Positions 23,938 to 32,223 of a stretch of 49,058 bases of DNA are shown in pieces. The stretch is from IMG/VR virus record IMGVR_UViG_3300006845_000023, positions 1-49,058 of that record; one strand, given 5' to 3'. The position numbers were made by a program, and so were the translations under genes. The notes under the pieces are model-generated. The model had not been told where the DNA came from and searched no databases. It saw nothing but the letters and a program-made list of their open reading frames with translations. The stretch is from a virus. Positions within the stretch are counted from its first letter, which is position 1; each line of letters starts with the position of its first letter.

Positions 23938-24286
23938 GACTCTTAGAGAAAAACAGTCGGTATTCGCTCGACTTGTTTCCCTATTAATCTTAGAAGCTGA
24001 GGCACAAGGATTTGAAGTTACTATTGGCGAGGTTTATCGTTCGCCAGAAGAAGCCGAAAGACTGTTCAAGTTAGGTAAGGGAATCAAAAATTCCTTACAT
24101 ACCCTTAAACTAGCAGTAGACATAAATCTATTCAAAAATGGAGTTTATCTGTCATCTACGGACTCTCATCGGTCATTGGGAGAATGGTGGGAAGGACTAT
24201 CTACACCCCCGGACATTATATGTCATTGGGGAGGTAGATTCGGAGATGGCAATCACTACTCCGTTGGACACGCGGGTAGAAAATGA
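23930..24286 (+). CDS. endolysin, M15-type peptidase, 118 aa
   Basis: This probably cleaves peptidoglycan stem peptides at lysis (L-Ala-D-Glu or D-Ala-D-Ala-type peptidase of family M15). The zinc-site motif S-x-H-x6-D appears as SLHTLKLAVDINLFKNG. The second motif is WGGRFGDGNHYS, in which the last His is a ligand. Among three alternative starts (TTG 23909, GTG 23915, TTG 23930) I prefer the TTG at 23930, since GAGAGG lies 7 nt upstream and the family begins at about LREKQ. It is 20 kb from the putative holin genes. Confidence 0.85.
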   Translation: MAKTLREKQSVFARLVSLLILEAEAQGFEVTIGEVYRSPEEAERLFKLGKGIKNSLHTLKLAVDINLFKNGVYLSSTDSHRSLGEWWEGLSTPPDIICHWGGRFGDGNHYSVGHAGRK

Positions 24287-24663
24287 ATATCCGAACTATG
24301 AAAATGGAGGATATTCCTGTTCTAAAAGCAATTCATGAACGGAATTATCCAGACCTAGACTTTCCGTTAGAACGTGACCTTCTCAGTGCCTTTGTAATTG
24401 AGAATGGTCATAAAGAAATCATTATGGCTGGCGGTGTAGAAGGTATTGCCGAAGCCCTTTTGGTAACTGATAAAACTAAGAGCCGAATTCAAGTAGGTAA
24501 GGCTCTAGTTGAGGCTCAGAGATTTTGTATGTATACATGTGGAATCTTCAAAATTCGAGAACTTCACGCTTTTGTGACTGACGATGAATACGCGAAACAT
24601 CTTATTCAGCACGGCTTCCAAAAACGTGAAGAAACGGTGCTCAGGATGATACTCAATGGGTAA
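24283..24663 (+). CDS. GNAT-like acetyltransferase-fold protein, 126 aa
   Basis: The N-terminus MNIRTMKMEDIPVLKAIHERNYPDLDFP and the ending (HAFVTDDEYAKHLIQHGFQKREETVLRMIL) follow the plan of GNAT N-acetyltransferases. The central acetyl-CoA loop (RxxGxG/A) is not conserved, so catalysis is doubtful. Such shortened GNAT-like proteins occur next to ejection-protein genes in environmental podoviruses. It overlaps the endolysin by 4 nt and the next gene by 8 nt. The fold call is moderately sure, the role unknown. Confidence 0.6.
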   Translation: MNIRTMKMEDIPVLKAIHERNYPDLDFPLERDLLSAFVIENGHKEIIMAGGVEGIAEALLVTDKTKSRIQVGKALVEAQRFCMYTCGIFKIRELHAFVTDDEYAKHLIQHGFQKREETVLRMILNG

Positions 24664-25855
24664 AAAGAAAACAACTCCGGCACCTAATCAGACTGACATC
24701 TATAACAGGGCTGTAACTGGCTATAACCAGACACAGCAGCCCTCCCAACTCGAAAATGAGATGGGTGGAGTCAGTCAGAATTTCATGGGTCGCTTTAATA
24801 AGTCTGCGGACCAAGCTACGCAGGATTATGGCGATATTATGGGTGGTTACAAGAACTTCATGAGTTCTTTCAAACCATCATTCGAGCGCGTGAACTATCA
24901 GCGTCCCGGTGAGCTTAACGAAGCATACGGATATCTTCGTGAAGCAATGCCGGGATACAGAGAATTCGCCAAAACTGGTGGATACTCCGCGCAAGATATT
25001 CAGGAACTTCGTGCGCGAGGCATAGCACCTATCCGTTCCGCTTATGGTAATACCATGATGGAAATGGATAGAGCTAGAGCGTTAGGGGGTGGTGGAGGTG
25101 CCCCTAACTATATAGCTGCTGCATCTCGCGCACAGAGAGAATTACCTGGTCAAATGGCTGATGCTATGACTGGTGTAAATGCTCAACTAGCACAGGATAT
25201 TAGACAAGGCAGACTTGCTGGTCTTGCTGGTATTCATGGTGTTGGTGGCACAATGGGCGGAATGTCACTAGATGATGCTCGCCTAGGACAACAGGCTGCA
25301 TTAGCTAATCAAGGTGCAGACTTGCAGGCTCAACAAATGGGTATGCAAGGTAGACTTGGTGCCCTTAGTGGTATGCAGAGTCTATATGGCACTACTCCGG
25401 GCATGGCTAATATGTTCGGAAATCAGGCTCTTAACGCATATGGTCAGAGAGCTGGAATGGACCAAGCTAGAAATCAGTTTGGTTTAGGCTATCTCGATGC
25501 CCAAATGCGTAGTCAGCAGCTTGGTCATGAACAGAAAGGAACACCGTGGTGGAAAACTGCACTATCGGTGGCCGGAACTGTTGCTCCCTACGCTGCTATG
25601 GCACTATCTGATAGAAATGCCAAGACTGAGATTAAATCAGTCGGTCGAGGCACTACTTCTAAGATGGCTAAATACCTTAAAGAACTACCTCTTAAGACTT
25701 GGAAATATAAGGGTGATGATACTACTCATTTTGGGCCTATGGCTCAGGACTTCAAGAAGAAATTCGGTATCGGAGATGGTAAAACTCTCCATCTTGCCGA
25801 TGTTATGGGCGTAGTCCTAGCTACGGCTAAGGAGGAAGCTCATGGCGATGCCTAA
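24656..25855 (+). CDS. internal virion protein with S74 chaperone-like C-terminus, 399 aa
   Basis: Residues 1-290 are rich in Gly, Ala, Gln and Met and largely helical (repeated LAGLAGIHG and GQQAALANQGADLQAQQMGMQG), like ejection or internal proteins. A short hydrophobic helix (~300-316) precedes a peptidase S74/intramolecular chaperone-like domain (~318-395) with the hallmark LSDRNAKTEIKSVG, then KTWKYKGDDTTHFGPMAQDF and HLADVMGVVLATAKEE. S74 domains usually trimerise and self-cleave fibre proteins, so its presence here is notable. It overlaps the next gene by 14 nt. Confidence 0.7.
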   Translation: MGKKKTTPAPNQTDIYNRAVTGYNQTQQPSQLENEMGGVSQNFMGRFNKSADQATQDYGDIMGGYKNFMSSFKPSFERVNYQRPGELNEAYGYLREAMPGYREFAKTGGYSAQDIQELRARGIAPIRSAYGNTMMEMDRARALGGGGGAPNYIAAASRAQRELPGQMADAMTGVNAQLAQDIRQGRLAGLAGIHGVGGTMGGMSLDDARLGQQAALANQGADLQAQQMGMQGRLGALSGMQSLYGTTPGMANMFGNQALNAYGQRAGMDQARNQFGLGYLDAQMRSQQLGHEQKGTPWWKTALSVAGTVAPYAAMALSDRNAKTEIKSVGRGTTSKMAKYLKELPLKTWKYKGDDTTHFGPMAQDFKKKFGIGDGKTLHLADVMGVVLATAKEEAHGDA

Positions 25856-27137
25856 TTTCTTCCGAAATGGATTAGACATGCTGAGGATGAAAAACATCTT
25901 TCAGCCTGAATCTCCCACATATCCTAGTCCTATGGGTGGAATGGGTGGTGGAATGCCACCTGAATTACCTAATATTCCTGTTCAATCTGGACTACCAATG
26001 CAGCAATCTGAATTTGATGTAACTCAACGTATGAAAGAACTCTATCAACCACAAAGTGTGGCTAGTGATAGGTTCAATCAAATGATGACAGACCAACCAA
26101 AATGGGAAAAACCAGGATTTTGGCGTAGTGCGGCTGCTGCACTATCAGCTTTTGGTCCTGGTGGTCATGAAACAGGGTTTAAGGTGGCTTCTGAACCTTA
26201 TACTCGTAAAATGACCGATTGGAAGGCTGGAATTGAACCTGCTTATCAGTCTGCAAATCTTGAGAGGCAGGAAAATATCAATGCGCGTCAATTAGCGCAT
26301 AATACTCTCCAAAGTGAGGTTACTTCGCGTCGAAACGAACAAACCGCGAAGAATCAAGATGTTCAAAATAAGATTCGTCAGCAGCGTGCTGATGCATATG
26401 ATTATAGGGTTCGTAACCCTAATTTGAAGTTCGATTTTAACGGTCCTCGCGTTCGGATTATGGACCCTGCGACTGGTAAAATCACTGAAACCTCTTGGGA
26501 ATCGAAGGATTTCACTCCACAAGAGAAACTTGAACTTGAGCAGAAAAATGCTATTGCTCGAATTCAAGAAACTGGTAAACAAGCTAGAGAAACTGAAACT
26601 ACTCGTCAAGAGGGTAGGACTGATATTGCCGAAACTAGAGGCTGGAAGCCTTATACAGATAAAGATGGAAACGTCTTTATGTATAATGAAATAACTGGAG
26701 AAACCAGAGATAGGAGTCAATCTCCTGTTGGAACTCCTACTCCTAGACCTAGCGGTGCATCTGCTAGACCTGAATTACCTTCTCAAACTAAAATTCGACA
26801 CTATAATGCTGCTCAGGAATTTGCCCAACGTAATCCAGAATTGGGGCGTTGGATTCAATTTGGAGCAGGAAATACATTTACTATTAAACCACCTAAAACT
26901 GGCACATTTGGTAGTGGTCCTTCACCACAACAGCATCAGATGATACAAGAAGCTATCTATGGTGCAGAAGGACAAGAACCTACTTTTCCATCATCTGGTC
27001 AAGGTGGGGGTAGGGGTGGTGGTTCTGGTCGTGGAACTCCTACTCCTAGATTTTCACCTAGTAAACCTCCTCCTGCTCCACAGGGATGGAAATATGTTCC
27101 AAAACAAGGTGGTGGCTGGACTGCTGTTCCTGGTTAG
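25842..27137 (+). CDS. putative internal/ejection protein, 431 aa
   Basis: The N-terminal ~85 residues are Pro/Met/Gly-rich. Residues ~90-260 are helical and charged (QENINARQLAHNTLQSEVTSRRNEQTAKNQD, KIRQQRADAYDYRVRNPNLKF). The C-terminal ~100 residues are a disordered Gly/Pro/Ser tail (GGGRGGGSGRGTPTPRF). It has no recognisable domain. Its position between the S74-bearing protein and the 1692-residue protein matches the ejection-protein trio of short-tailed phages. I infer that it is packaged in the head and delivered with DNA. Confidence 0.6.
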   Translation: MAMPNFFRNGLDMLRMKNIFQPESPTYPSPMGGMGGGMPPELPNIPVQSGLPMQQSEFDVTQRMKELYQPQSVASDRFNQMMTDQPKWEKPGFWRSAAAALSAFGPGGHETGFKVASEPYTRKMTDWKAGIEPAYQSANLERQENINARQLAHNTLQSEVTSRRNEQTAKNQDVQNKIRQQRADAYDYRVRNPNLKFDFNGPRVRIMDPATGKITETSWESKDFTPQEKLELEQKNAIARIQETGKQARETETTRQEGRTDIAETRGWKPYTDKDGNVFMYNEITGETRDRSQSPVGTPTPRPSGASARPELPSQTKIRHYNAAQEFAQRNPELGRWIQFGAGNTFTIKPPKTGTFGSGPSPQQHQMIQEAIYGAEGQEPTFPSSGQGGGRGGGSGRGTPTPRFSPSKPPPAPQGWKYVPKQGGGWTAVPG

Positions 27138-27144
27138 GTGAGAG

Positions 27145-30100
27145 ATGTATCCACCAAAACAAAAACCGCCCGATTTAGATGATGCTGGTCAACCGATTAA
27201 ATTTGACCAGAAGCCTCCAGATTTAGATGATTACGGTAATCCTAGTGTAGAAACTCCAGGTCTAGGTTCACAAATCTGGGGTGCATTAAATGAAGGTCTG
27301 TGGGAAGCTCCCTCACGATGGGGAAAGCAATTTGCAGACTGGATGACTACACCAGAATTAGATGATTCTAGATTTACTGCTATGGCTAAAGGTGCCGTAG
27401 GCGGTATGGGGCAAGGTCTGGGACAATTAGCTACTGACTTAACTTCGCCAATCAATATTGGAGCCACACTAGCTACAGGTGGTTCAAATCTAGCACTTAG
27501 AGCAGGATTACGTCCTGAAGTAGTGAAAGGTATATCTACTGCTGCTAAAGCTCTATCTGTTCCTGCTGCTGCTCATGGTGGTATGGAAATGGGTGGTGCT
27601 GCTACTGATTTCTTTGACCCTAATATTCCATTAACTGAAACTGCCGGTAGATTTGGTCGTGGTGCTATTGAAGCTGCTGGTGGCACACTAGGAGCACTAC
27701 ATACACCTAATACACAAGGTCCAATTCTTAGTAGATTGTGGCCTGATACTGAAGCTAAAGCTGCGGCTAGTGTTTCGGACCTATTACCCAAATTACGTGA
27801 ATCACTGGATAAGGATGCTCAAAATAGAGCAAAAAATCCAGAAACTACACCGGACCAAACAGGTTCGCCTAATGCCCAACCACAACAAGCTACTAAAGTA
27901 TTCATTAAGACTCCATCACCAGAACTAGTTAATCACGTTAAGTCACAAGGCTACGACTTTACTGGGGTAGACCCCAATAGAGGTATGGTGTTTGAGCGGC
28001 GTAGACCTGCGCCTGCTCCACCTGAACGTGTGCCTGATATTGAGGAATTTGAAACTGTTAAGGAAGAAGCTCCTGATATTAATCAGTTTGAGGATGAACC
28101 TATGTTTAGTAGAGTTCCTCAACCTGGTCAGGAACCGCAATTTGCCTTCATGGATGATATGAATTTCCCTGAAGGTCCAGAACCCTTTTTCCATCTTCCC
28201 GATGGTTCTACAGTTTCTCAACGCGAATTAGTTAGACGAGGAATTGAAGTTCCTCAACTACCTGATGAACAGTTGGGAATTGGTCGTCAATTTCCTGGTA
28301 TCGAAGCTGAGGAAGTTGGTCCGATAGGGAGACAACCAATAGATTTGAATCAGGCTCTAATAGATATGGAGTCTGATATGGCTAGACCTGTTGGTCGTGG
28401 TCAGAGTGAAGGATTCGCGCAACAGGTAATGCCAGATGATGAACCTCTATTCTCTCGTGTTCCACGTCCTCCTGAAGAAACGAGGGGACCACTATTTAAT
28501 GAACCTGTAACTCCTAGAGTTCCGGGTCCAGAACTACCGCATGAATTTCAACCTGATATTCCTATGACTAGAGAACCAGTCGAAGGTGGTTATTCACCTC
28601 AATTTGGTGAACAAGTCATACCTACTGAAGAACCATTATTTAGTCGTGTGCCTAAGCCTAGCGACGAAATGAGAACTAATCAGAATCCACGTTGGGTGGA
28701 AGCTGAAAATGATGCCAAAATACTAGGCATTAATCCGGCTGATTTTCAACACATTGATGACCTTGAATGGGCCATTACTCAGAGAACTGCTGAAGAAACT
28801 ATGAGAACTGGTATGAATCCCTTGGCAGCAGCTAAAGGTGATATACCATTACAGGCTAAAGTAGGCGAAGGAAAGGCCAAAATTGACGTTAATGTCAGAA
28901 AGGCCGCTGATGAATTAACTAAGGGCTATAATCAACCTCTCCCCGCAGTTATGGTGCGCGAAGGATTACAGAATGCCTTCGATGCTACTAAACTAATGAG
29001 AGGATCTGGTAAGGCTACTATTAAAGTAGAAAATGATGGTATTACCATTAGTGATAATGGTAAGGGAATGGGTCCTGAAGAACTCTATACTGTCTATACT
29101 AACTTACATGAATCAGGTAAGGTAACTGAAGAAGGTGCCACAGGTGGTAAAGGTGTCGGTAAGGCTACCTTTATGCTCGGTGGTTCACGTTTTTCAGTTG
29201 AAACTGTTAAGCAAATCGGTAACAAGAAAATCGCATCCAGTTTCGAGGGAACTCCTGAAGAACTTCTAGCTGGATTCGACATTGATACTGTAGAAGTGCC
29301 TATGGATACTCCTACTGGCACTACTTTTACTACTAAATTTAAGGAAGGCCAAGAGGCTTTCTATGCTCGTAATATGATTGAAGAAATCAGTAAATATAGC
29401 CGAAATCTTGACCTTACAATGGACGTAGATAGCTACGGTTATGGTTATGTGGGTCAAAAATTCAAGAATACTAAAATCGATGACAGGTCCATTATCAAAG
29501 AAACCGTAGATAGTGGTAATTCTGGCGTTGAAGTCCTTATTCCCAAGAGTGCTGAACTTGGAGAGAGGTCATCTGTCAAGATGGTCTATCTCAATAATGG
29601 AATGTATCAATTTTCCAATCGTATGTATCTGGATGAATCCACCAAGGGTATTCCAGAGGAAATTATTCTCGATATTAATCCAAAGGTTCCTGAAGGTCAT
29701 GATAATTATCCATTCCCTGTTCAGCGGGAATCTATTAAAGAAGGTATGCAAAAAGAAATTGAGAATCTTGTCAAAGACAAGCTAATCAATCCATTTGCAA
29801 ACCAGAAGAAGATGGATTTGGCTAAATTGTGGGATTCTATGCCTATCATGGGTAAAGACCCACTTACCGGGGTTGAAATTGTTCTATTTGACCCAGGTAA
29901 TAGGCTGACTCCTGATGAATTGATGGAACTTCAAACTAATCCTGTAGTTGGTGAACTAAATAATGCGATAAATCAACTAGTTAGTAATATTCTAGCTACT
30001 ACAGAAAGACCTAAGTGGGCAGCTAAGGTTAAGAGGGTAGGTATTACTCTTGACCCAGGTATTTACGGTGTTCATATCCCTGACCCAAGGTCAATTAAGA

Positions 30101-32223
30101 CTGACCCATCGTCTGCAATTTTAATCAATCCATTTGCACATACAGAGGTGCCAAAAGAAGCTCCTCAAGGTGCGATGGATATTACTCCCGAAAGTGCTGC
30201 ATTAGATACTGTTGTAACCGCAATGCATGAAGTGGCGCATGTAGGGTCTGAGGACCCCAAAACAGTGCCACCAATTACTGATGCAGACCTTACTGACCCA
30301 AGAGTAGGTAGATATCTCCAGACCTATCTACAGCAAGCCGTCACACAGGGCGGACTTGACATGGGTCATGGAATGCCATTTATCCATAGACTAGGAGAGA
30401 TTTATGCCAAATTTGGAACAAGGAATGGACTCGCCGCAGCGACCAGAATTCAGCAAATTCTCTCAGGTGGGCAGTCTGGGAGATACAGTCCAGAAGTTCA
30501 GAGACTACTACACATCTATACTGAATCAAGGGGGCGAGGAGCAACTACAGAGGACATTCTCTCAGGAACGGGAGTTAAGTCAGCAAATAGAATCCCCGGA
30601 GAAGGAAATGTTCCTGGCGATGATACAGGACTTCGAGGAGGAACTCCTAGGACTGCAATCCTCAGAGGAAAACATGCCACCCCAGATGCCGTAAAAGCAA
30701 TGAAAGACCGTGGATATGAATTCTCTCATATGAACGAACATGGGAGTTTTGTATTCACTAAGGCAAGTATGGGTGGACAGGGTGGAGGAAAACCACCTAA
30801 AACTCCTATTCTTGAATCTGAAGTTCCACAGCCTCCCGGTAGAAAACCACAGGGAGAACCTGAGAAAATTAGTCCTTGGCGTGAGGCTTTTGAATTACCT
30901 CGCGCTATGATGTCGGTAGACCCTCCGTTTGTAACATCCGCTATGTTCAGACAAGGACTACCATTAGTAGGAACTAAAGGATGGTTTAAGGCTGCTTTCG
31001 AGCAGGCTAAAGCATTCGGTAGTCAGAAGTATTATGACCAGCGAATGGCCGAATTAGGACAAGACCCACTATTCAAACCGCGAGGAAAGAAACCCTCGTA
31101 TGCTGAACATATTGGTGTTGCTATGACCGATATGGGCAGTAAACTGACTAGGCGCGAGGAAGCTCTCAGGTCAAAGATTGCTGAAAAGATTCCTCTCTAT
31201 GGTAAGTATATTAGAGCAAGCAATAGAGCCTTTACACTATTCTTGAATGAACTACGTGTTAATACACTTAATGAACTAGTAAAAACTGGAAGAGCCAATG
31301 CTAAAGCAGATGGTAATGCTGCATTAGACCCATTCCAGAACGAGGTTCTGGCTAAAGAATTGGCAGAGTTTGTTAATGTTGCCACTGGTCGTGGTTCACT
31401 AAAGGCACAACTTCCCTTCACTAAGAAGGAATATAGTGCTGAACGTGCATCTAAACTATTGGCTGACGCATTCTTCTCTCCGCGCCTCATTGCATCGAGG
31501 ATGAAGATGATGAATCCGTCTACCTATATTTTTGGTAATCCACAAGTTCGGAAAGAATATACTAAAGCTATGCTCAGAACTGTTGGAGCATGGTGGACTT
31601 TTGCTTCAATAGCTGAAATGATGTTTGGTGCTGATGTAAGTAAAGACCCGAATAATGCTGACTTCGGAAAAGTCAAGATTGGTAATACTAGATTTGATGC
31701 TGGTGGGGGATTTCAACAGTGGCTTGTTCTAGGTAGCAGAATGAGATTTAACTGGATGAAACTACCCATCGAAACTGAGACAGGTATCACACCTATTGAC
31801 CTTATGACTAATCTCATGGGTCATGGTGGAGGTAAATATACTAGCTCTGGCTCTGGTGCGAGTTATGATTTTGGTTCTGGCTACAAACCAGAAACCAGAA
31901 CTAGTATCATGATTAATTTTCTTGCGAACAAGCTACACCCGACTGCGAAATTCTTCTGGGATTTGGGAAGTGCTAACGAGCAGATTCCTGTCTACGTAGG
32001 GGATAGGATAATGCAGATGTTCCTACCTATGATGGCGGGAGACTTGGCAGAACTAGCAGTTGAAGAACCTGAATTGATACCACTAGTTCTACCATTCTCC
32101 GGTATCGGGGGTGGAACTCAGACTTACACTGGTCAAGCTGGTAAACCCTCTATTACTCCATTCATGGAACAGTTCATGGGAATGGAAGGAATAGGAGAAT
32201 ACGATATTCCCTACGGTCGTTAA
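27145..32223 (+). CDS. giant multidomain internal protein: GHKL ATPase + HExxH protease, 1692 aa
   Basis: This is probably an ejected or polyvalent virion protein. Residues 1-590 are largely disordered and carry three FSRVP[QRK]P repeats (~320, 436, 499). A GHKL (Hsp90/MORC-type) ATPase follows: N-box REGLQNAFDA (605-614), G1 DNGKGM (637-642), G2 GGKGVGKAT (667-675). A zinc-protease motif HEVAH is at 1028-1032. A ~35-residue module at 251-285 recurs at 1170-1205. The C-terminus (~1430-1560: FFSPRLIASRMKMMNPSTY, DFGKVKIGNTRFDAGGGFQQW) resembles a region seen in large virion proteins of other phages. It is the last late gene. Confidence 0.8.
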   Translation: MYPPKQKPPDLDDAGQPIKFDQKPPDLDDYGNPSVETPGLGSQIWGALNEGLWEAPSRWGKQFADWMTTPELDDSRFTAMAKGAVGGMGQGLGQLATDLTSPINIGATLATGGSNLALRAGLRPEVVKGISTAAKALSVPAAAHGGMEMGGAATDFFDPNIPLTETAGRFGRGAIEAAGGTLGALHTPNTQGPILSRLWPDTEAKAAASVSDLLPKLRESLDKDAQNRAKNPETTPDQTGSPNAQPQQATKVFIKTPSPELVNHVKSQGYDFTGVDPNRGMVFERRRPAPAPPERVPDIEEFETVKEEAPDINQFEDEPMFSRVPQPGQEPQFAFMDDMNFPEGPEPFFHLPDGSTVSQRELVRRGIEVPQLPDEQLGIGRQFPGIEAEEVGPIGRQPIDLNQALIDMESDMARPVGRGQSEGFAQQVMPDDEPLFSRVPRPPEETRGPLFNEPVTPRVPGPELPHEFQPDIPMTREPVEGGYSPQFGEQVIPTEEPLFSRVPKPSDEMRTNQNPRWVEAENDAKILGINPADFQHIDDLEWAITQRTAEETMRTGMNPLAAAKGDIPLQAKVGEGKAKIDVNVRKAADELTKGYNQPLPAVMVREGLQNAFDATKLMRGSGKATIKVENDGITISDNGKGMGPEELYTVYTNLHESGKVTEEGATGGKGVGKATFMLGGSRFSVETVKQIGNKKIASSFEGTPEELLAGFDIDTVEVPMDTPTGTTFTTKFKEGQEAFYARNMIEEISKYSRNLDLTMDVDSYGYGYVGQKFKNTKIDDRSIIKETVDSGNSGVEVLIPKSAELGERSSVKMVYLNNGMYQFSNRMYLDESTKGIPEEIILDINPKVPEGHDNYPFPVQRESIKEGMQKEIENLVKDKLINPFANQKKMDLAKLWDSMPIMGKDPLTGVEIVLFDPGNRLTPDELMELQTNPVVGELNNAINQLVSNILATTERPKWAAKVKRVGITLDPGIYGVHIPDPRSIKTDPSSAILINPFAHTEVPKEAPQGAMDITPESAALDTVVTAMHEVAHVGSEDPKTVPPITDADLTDPRVGRYLQTYLQQAVTQGGLDMGHGMPFIHRLGEIYAKFGTRNGLAAATRIQQILSGGQSGRYSPEVQRLLHIYTESRGRGATTEDILSGTGVKSANRIPGEGNVPGDDTGLRGGTPRTAILRGKHATPDAVKAMKDRGYEFSHMNEHGSFVFTKASMGGQGGGKPPKTPILESEVPQPPGRKPQGEPEKISPWREAFELPRAMMSVDPPFVTSAMFRQGLPLVGTKGWFKAAFEQAKAFGSQKYYDQRMAELGQDPLFKPRGKKPSYAEHIGVAMTDMGSKLTRREEALRSKIAEKIPLYGKYIRASNRAFTLFLNELRVNTLNELVKTGRANAKADGNAALDPFQNEVLAKELAEFVNVATGRGSLKAQLPFTKKEYSAERASKLLADAFFSPRLIASRMKMMNPSTYIFGNPQVRKEYTKAMLRTVGAWWTFASIAEMMFGADVSKDPNNADFGKVKIGNTRFDAGGGFQQWLVLGSRMRFNWMKLPIETETGITPIDLMTNLMGHGGGKYTSSGSGASYDFGSGYKPETRTSIMINFLANKLHPTAKFFWDLGSANEQIPVYVGDRIMQMFLPMMAGDLAELAVEEPELIPLVLPFSGIGGGTQTYTGQAGKPSITPFMEQFMGMEGIGEYDIPYGR

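Follow-up and report, generated by a model that had tools for sequence, protein, structure and literature searches.

A giant phage protein of predicted ejection type carries an Hsp90-like ATPase and a zincin-like domain as exchangeable cargo

We describe a giant phage protein, hereafter protein C, in which an Hsp90-type GHKL ATPase and a zincin-like domain lie between terminal parts that are also present in sister phages. It is encoded in a virus record of 49,058 bases, IMGVR_UViG_3300006845_000023, analysed over its whole length (positions 1 to 49,058; hereafter the window). Strong, if indirect, support points to a polyvalent ejection-type protein with exchangeable cargo, and the sequence places the ATPase-zincin block as a new type of cargo within the known class of polyvalent proteins, with a predicted function and a predicted mode of delivery. 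The known set of probably injected phage enzymes thereby gains an Hsp90-type ATPase, and the prediction follows that such an ATPase and a metalloprotease are delivered together with the phage genome. If so, the phage would act on the bacterium before any phage gene is read.

The gene for protein C occupies positions 27145-32223 on the plus strand, where the list of open reading frames and the translation give 1692 open codons and a protein of 1692 aa, with a Shine-Dalgarno-like GGTGAGAG upstream of the ATG. It is the final gene of the plus-strand late block, its downstream neighbours being on the minus strand, and the earlier note's description of a 1692-residue late protein closing the operon thus holds. 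Two features of polyvalent proteins are present: at least two unrelated enzymatic or effector domains, GHKL and zincin, in one polypeptide, and encoding among late virion genes, beside the conserved companion genes A and B.

The GHKL (Bergerat) ATPase domain (residues about 590-740; 28912-29364, plus strand) was recognized by Pfam PF13589 (HATPase_c_3) with 32.4 bits at residues 607-690 (cut-off 25), and PHROG RIIA families match the protein at 9e-7. In an alignment of 14 members, all of which carry PF13589, the three motifs that had been read by eye, the N-box RE606xxxN610xxD613A (28960-28986), G1 D637NGKG641M (29053-29070) and G2 ATGGKGVG (residues 665-672; 29137-29160), proved invariant or near-invariant; R605, E606, N610, D613, A614, D637, N638, G639, G641 and ATGGKGxG are invariant, as are R861 and K865. 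These last two belong to an Hsp90/RIIA-type motif, YPFPVQRESIK (residues 855-865; 29707-29739), missed in the earlier note and located in a middle, transducer-like domain (29365-29859, plus strand) that Foldseek aligned, together with the N-domain, to Hsp90/TRAP1. On sequence evidence this is a genuine GHKL ATPase domain, and ATP hydrolysis would be its expected activity. PADLOC returned weak TmtA matches only, confined to the GHKL part.

An AlphaFold2 model of residues 566-1148, built on the 14-sequence alignment, reached a pLDDT of 77.6, with values below 50 in two stretches, model residues 91-103 (the ATP lid) and 294-298 (the RE loop of the middle domain). Its best 50 PDB matches by fold were all members of the Hsp90 family (HtpG, TRAP1, Hsc82, Grp94; E about 1e-11). 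Because Hsp90 structures abound in the PDB, a profile search is the fairer test, and it returned HtpG at 2e-7, with Topo VI-B (5.9e-5) as the only non-Hsp90 family among the 60 matches listed. The domain had been called "Hsp90/MORC-like"; profile and fold matches uphold the first half, and a MORC-like origin was discarded, as MORC was absent among those 60 matches. Fold matches among viral models (BFVD) included RIIA-like and viral Hsp90 proteins and, besides these, one 1404-aa protein at 2.5e-17. Protein C shares with Hsp90, HtpG and TRAP1 the motifs RExxxNAxDA, DNGxGM and GxxGxG and a putative RE motif of the middle domain, and these are its best fold and profile matches, but identity in the fold alignments is 11-17%. 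The fold matches suggest Hsp90-like N and middle domains, and R861 is invariant as the candidate catalytic arginine, though in a loop modelled at pLDDT <50; no Hsp90 C-terminal dimerisation domain was found after the middle domain, and in the alignment and the model a zincin-like domain takes its place.

This zincin-like domain (29860-30588, plus strand) contains the separate HEVAH motif (H1028-E1029-V-A-H1032; 30226-30240) reported earlier, whose His, Glu and His are invariant in all 14 members; about 0.01 HExxH motifs would be expected by composition, a rough figure taken from a gapped alignment row. A further invariant histidine, H1075 in a GHG motif (30364-30372), had gone unseen and fits the missing zinc ligand. 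This assignment is supported by the divergent relative L070, which reads HEVAHLPGGGHD, an exact HExxHxxGxxHD with metzincin spacing, and by the Glu found at the same position in L037, L035 and L109. E1127 was rejected as third ligand, being Lys in L016. Downstream of the ATPase and middle domain, the model has helices followed by three strands, then the HExxH helix and, starting after H1075, a further long helix, an order that fits the zincin description of Iyer et al. (PMC5512222), so that HExxH and a candidate third ligand before the following helix, as expected of a zincin, are found in alignment and model alike. The structure prediction that had been proposed as a check therefore supports both a Bergerat-type ATPase and a zincin-like topology, alongside sequence and conservation. 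The window zincin gave no match in a PDB sequence search, and the SprT-like profile PF10263 was absent from all 14 members. Protein C shares with SprT/Spartan-type and metzincin proteases an HExxH with a third His, and with metzincins the spacing seen in L070, but it lacks a profile match to them and has an insert of about 40 residues before its third His.

Scans of viral contigs returned relatives that span the whole GHKL-to-zincin block at 35-80% identity, and hmmsearch added four divergent copies with the same domain chain (L037, L061, L070, L094), giving at least 18 phages. The combination was said to be unusual; it recurs in this phage group and so is not a one-off. A chance motif or an assembly chimera was rejected, the block being present in 18 independent contigs. 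GHKL was accompanied by zincin in 18 of 18 phages, and a zincin without GHKL was found in L035, L066 and L109. Relative to the closest relative, L004, dN/dS was 0.145 for the GHKL, 0.127 for the middle and 0.148 for the zincin segment, against 0.27 and 0.48 in linkers; the low values in the three enzymatic segments indicate that these domains are under purifying selection. The homologue search found no bacterial or plasmid homologues of the cargo.

Other arrangements of these domains were also observed. An unrelated phage, on a 111-kb viral contig, encodes a stand-alone protein of 518 aa (L021:9974-11530) with a GHKL domain (Pfam 3e-14) and a HEYAH...SHDGNF zincin. This scaffold-free pairing of the two domain types suggests that GHKL and zincin form a working unit. 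Its zincin matched SprT weakly (0.0083), and homology to the window zincin was unsupported by comparison. In L013:2048-7582 the block continues into a C-terminal domain of some 650 aa that is unrelated to the C-scaffold, and the protein at L016:8573-11842 ends shortly after the post-zincin linker, with no C-scaffold gene found downstream of it.

The C-terminal scaffold (residues 1235-1692; 30847-32220, plus strand) is mostly helical and common to more than 90 other proteins of uncultured phages, its 458 residues retrieving at least 93 relatives in the viral-contig scan. Among named phages the sole relative of protein C is the metagenomic phage MW202497, related through this domain only (hhalign probability 99.9%, E 5e-32), whose protein has its own HELGH motif and lacks the GHKL motif. 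Pfam analysis of 28 long C-scaffold relatives identified SLT, M23, GGDEF, ART-PolyVal or HATPase domains, and located cargoes include SLT in L085, GGDEF in L104 and ART-PolyVal in L095 and L096 (below the curated cut-off). The N-terminal scaffold (residues about 36-300; 27250-28044, plus strand) aligns by blastp with the payload-less L056, L059, L064, L068 and others, with E down to 5e-24. Four phages with DNA polymerases 71-74% identical to that of the window (L033, L038, L056, L064) keep the C-scaffold and miss the ATPase-zincin block, and A and B are also present in L033, L038 and L064, that is, where the locus spans them. The sister phages, at 70-75% DNA polymerase identity, thus have the same scaffold without the block, a filled/empty-site pattern displayed for polyvalent cargo on one scaffold.

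In the window, two copies of a 28-aa repeat module, detected by HMM, bracket the cargo (residues 258-285, 27916-27999, domain E 4e-11; residues 1179-1206, 30679-30762, domain E 8e-13; both plus strand). The payload-less L048, L059, L064 and L068 have a single copy, directly before the C-scaffold. Such repeats may mark cargo insertion sites. The payload-less L038:3858-7616 has three copies with proline-rich linkers between them. When the GHKL-zincin state was mapped on a quick maximum-likelihood tree of 43 DNA polymerases, it required 11-12 changes, no fewer than with shuffled labels (12.5). Since exchange of whole late modules could add to this count, the scaffold alignments are the stronger argument for cargo movement. 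A PDB search with a model of the C-scaffold (pLDDT 60) gave no match, and comparison of the scaffold with LPD families gave only a weak hint of LPD24 (E 0.26).

Companion A (399 aa; 24656-25855, plus strand) and companion B (431 aa; 25842-27137, plus strand) are candidates for the second and third ejection proteins, with homologues beside protein C in 65 and 54 fetched loci, respectively, some of them overlapping. In T7, P22 and N4, three consecutive internal proteins are found, the last being the largest and carrying cargo domains (PMC8954989; PMC12633501). The earlier ejection reading is favored by the position at the end of the late operon, the A-B-C trio, the shared scaffold and the exchangeable cargoes including SLT, but gains nothing from homology to a characterised ejection protein: no homology to the T7 gp16 / P22 gp16 class was found, and A and B matched no PHROG ejection family. 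Because named ejection proteins gave no match, the assignment is made from the gene's position, from architecture and from the SLT cargo. The podovirus (short-tailed) morphology is putative, as the portal and tail candidates tried had no match by PDB, phage tblastn or comparison with the MW202497 "stabilization protein". In this phage, Pfam assigns the C-terminal part of companion A to Peptidase_S74, an intramolecular chaperone domain, which is odd for a candidate internal virion protein; this domain is usually a tail-spike or fibre feature. Immediately upstream of gene A, positions 24283-24663 of the late operon encode a 126-aa protein that resembles GNAT acetyltransferases by eye and has relatives in 38 fetched loci.

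No paper on a combination of GHKL or Hsp90 with a zincin was found in the open-licence literature, and we know of no earlier description of an Hsp90-type ATPase joined to a protease or located within a polyvalent protein. Zincin-bearing polyvalent proteins are themselves established, including P1 DarB/DdrB and N4 gp50 (Iyer et al. 2017, PMC5512222), and the zincin MPTase is their commonest domain, at 36% (PMC5512222). Like protein C, they are giant late-operon proteins with unrelated enzymatic domains, a shared scaffold and a zincin MPTase; unlike in protein C, with its Hsp90-like GHKL domain, neither Hsp90 nor GHKL is mentioned in the main text of that survey, and as candidate third zinc ligand the main group of protein C relatives has His, not the Glu described there (PMC5512222). 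The virion RNA polymerase N4 gp50 is built in the same order, with a payload followed by an HExxH domain and a large helical domain at the C-terminus (PMC12633501), but its payload is an RNA polymerase instead of a GHKL ATPase, and the C-terminal likeness is one of order of parts only. These comparisons offer a handle on the purpose of zincin domains, which polyvalent proteins so often contain.

The other phage-borne GHKL ATPases brought up by the PHROG (9e-7) and BFVD matches are T4 RIIA and RIIA-like proteins. RIIA, which combines a GHKL domain with a C-terminus that varies, is described as a counter-defence protein that is still poorly understood (PMC7824862); RexAB blocks T4 rIIAB mutants, and RIIA lets T4 resist RexAB (PMC8594841). 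Both RIIA relatives examined are stand-alone, lie beside RIIB and have no HExxH, whereas the GHKL of protein C is an internal domain. Orthology to RIIA was rejected: the examined RIIAs lack the zincin and the architecture, and protein C is flanked by A and B upstream and by an opposite-strand gene downstream. Protein C nonetheless provides a handle on how RIIA-like GHKL ATPases act on host immunity.

In our proposed scheme, A, B and C are all internal (ejection) proteins of a phage of short-tailed type, C being the largest, and the Hsp90-type clamp and zincin of protein C are ejected and act in the cytoplasm on a host protein before phage transcription. We consider the chances of this proposal evenly balanced. 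The N- and C-terminal parts would form a structural scaffold with exchangeable cargo between them, the cargo being an Hsp90-type ATPase clamp (GHKL N-domain and middle domain) fused to a His-Glu-His-His zincin. Protein C would be packaged in the head, ejected with or ahead of the DNA, and active in the cytoplasm before phage transcription; there, the ATPase would clamp a host protein or complex in an ATP-dependent manner and present the clamped target to the zincin for cleavage, the most likely outcome being that a protein of host defence or regulation is disabled. Predicted elements of this scheme are packaging, ejection, ATP hydrolysis, proteolysis, the coupling of ATPase and protease and the host target. 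An early cytoplasmic effector is favored because the two domains travel paired, because L021 pairs them scaffold-free and because the phage lineage can do without the block. A more far-reaching version, in which a virion-delivered ATP-dependent chaperone-protease, its Hsp90-type clamp feeding the covalently linked metalloprotease, is itself the cargo swapped between phages and dismantles host defence complexes before phage gene expression, is put forward tentatively.

The main rival to this early-effector reading is autoprocessing: the zincin would cleave protein C in its linkers, either inside the head or once in the cell, and free an RIIA-like Hsp90-type ATPase as the effector. We regard this as possible though doubtful. 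Autoprocessing has been proposed as a role of polyvalent MPTases by Iyer et al. (2017, PMC5512222), but N4 packages its vRNAP, which has a zincin of this kind, without processing it (PMC5512222). The linkers of GHKL-zincin proteins contain an acidic-PxFx[RK] motif, with 14 matches against 0.63 expected and 1 in 49 cargo-less proteins; the window has three acidic-PxFSR copies (28093-28113, 28438-28458 and 28627-28647) in the linker at 28093-28647 (plus strand). This motif could be a cleavage/processing or a docking site, but it was found post hoc by inspecting these same sequences, part of its matches fall at a homologous position just before GHKL, and it is missing from the zincin-only proteins (0/3). 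The conserved post-zincin linker, TEDxLSxTGVK...GN[VI]PG, just past which the L016 protein ends, is also in keeping with cleavage, while L021 pairs both domains with no scaffold to leave.

That the ATPase and zincin serve ejection itself, through unfolding, refolding, ejectosome disassembly or envelope opening, and not host proteins, would suit their position inside the scaffold and the strong refolding of ejection proteins on ejection (PMC8954989); we consider it improbable, as related phages keep the scaffold, A and B without the block, which is therefore dispensable for ejection. We also hold it unlikely that protein C is a late intracellular protein, related to assembly or lysis and never injected: other RIIA-like GHKL phage proteins are stand-alone and intracellular, but protein C is placed after the tail genes in a trio with A and B, its scaffold sister L085 carries an SLT cargo, and unrelated enzymes on one scaffold match the polyvalent pattern. 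Very unlikely, finally, is an HExxH domain without protease activity, either degenerate or non-hydrolytic like alphaKG-HExxH proteins, that would leave the ATPase as the only activity, since, despite the missing PDB sequence match to a known protease and the existence of non-protease HExxH enzymes, noted for N4 vRNAP C1 (PMC12633501), His-Glu-His and a third ligand (His, or Glu in divergent members) are kept through large divergence in a topology that fits the zincin description (PMC5512222).

Two further members of the scaffold family deserve mention. The search for bacterial or plasmid homologues of the C-scaffold returned two MAG contigs only. The C-scaffold relative L110 lies on a contig binned as Candidatus Saccharibacteria, which may be a host hint or a binning error. 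In L104:4502-10966 the scaffold carries the GGDEF (diguanylate cyclase) domain, possibly a virion-delivered second-messenger synthase.
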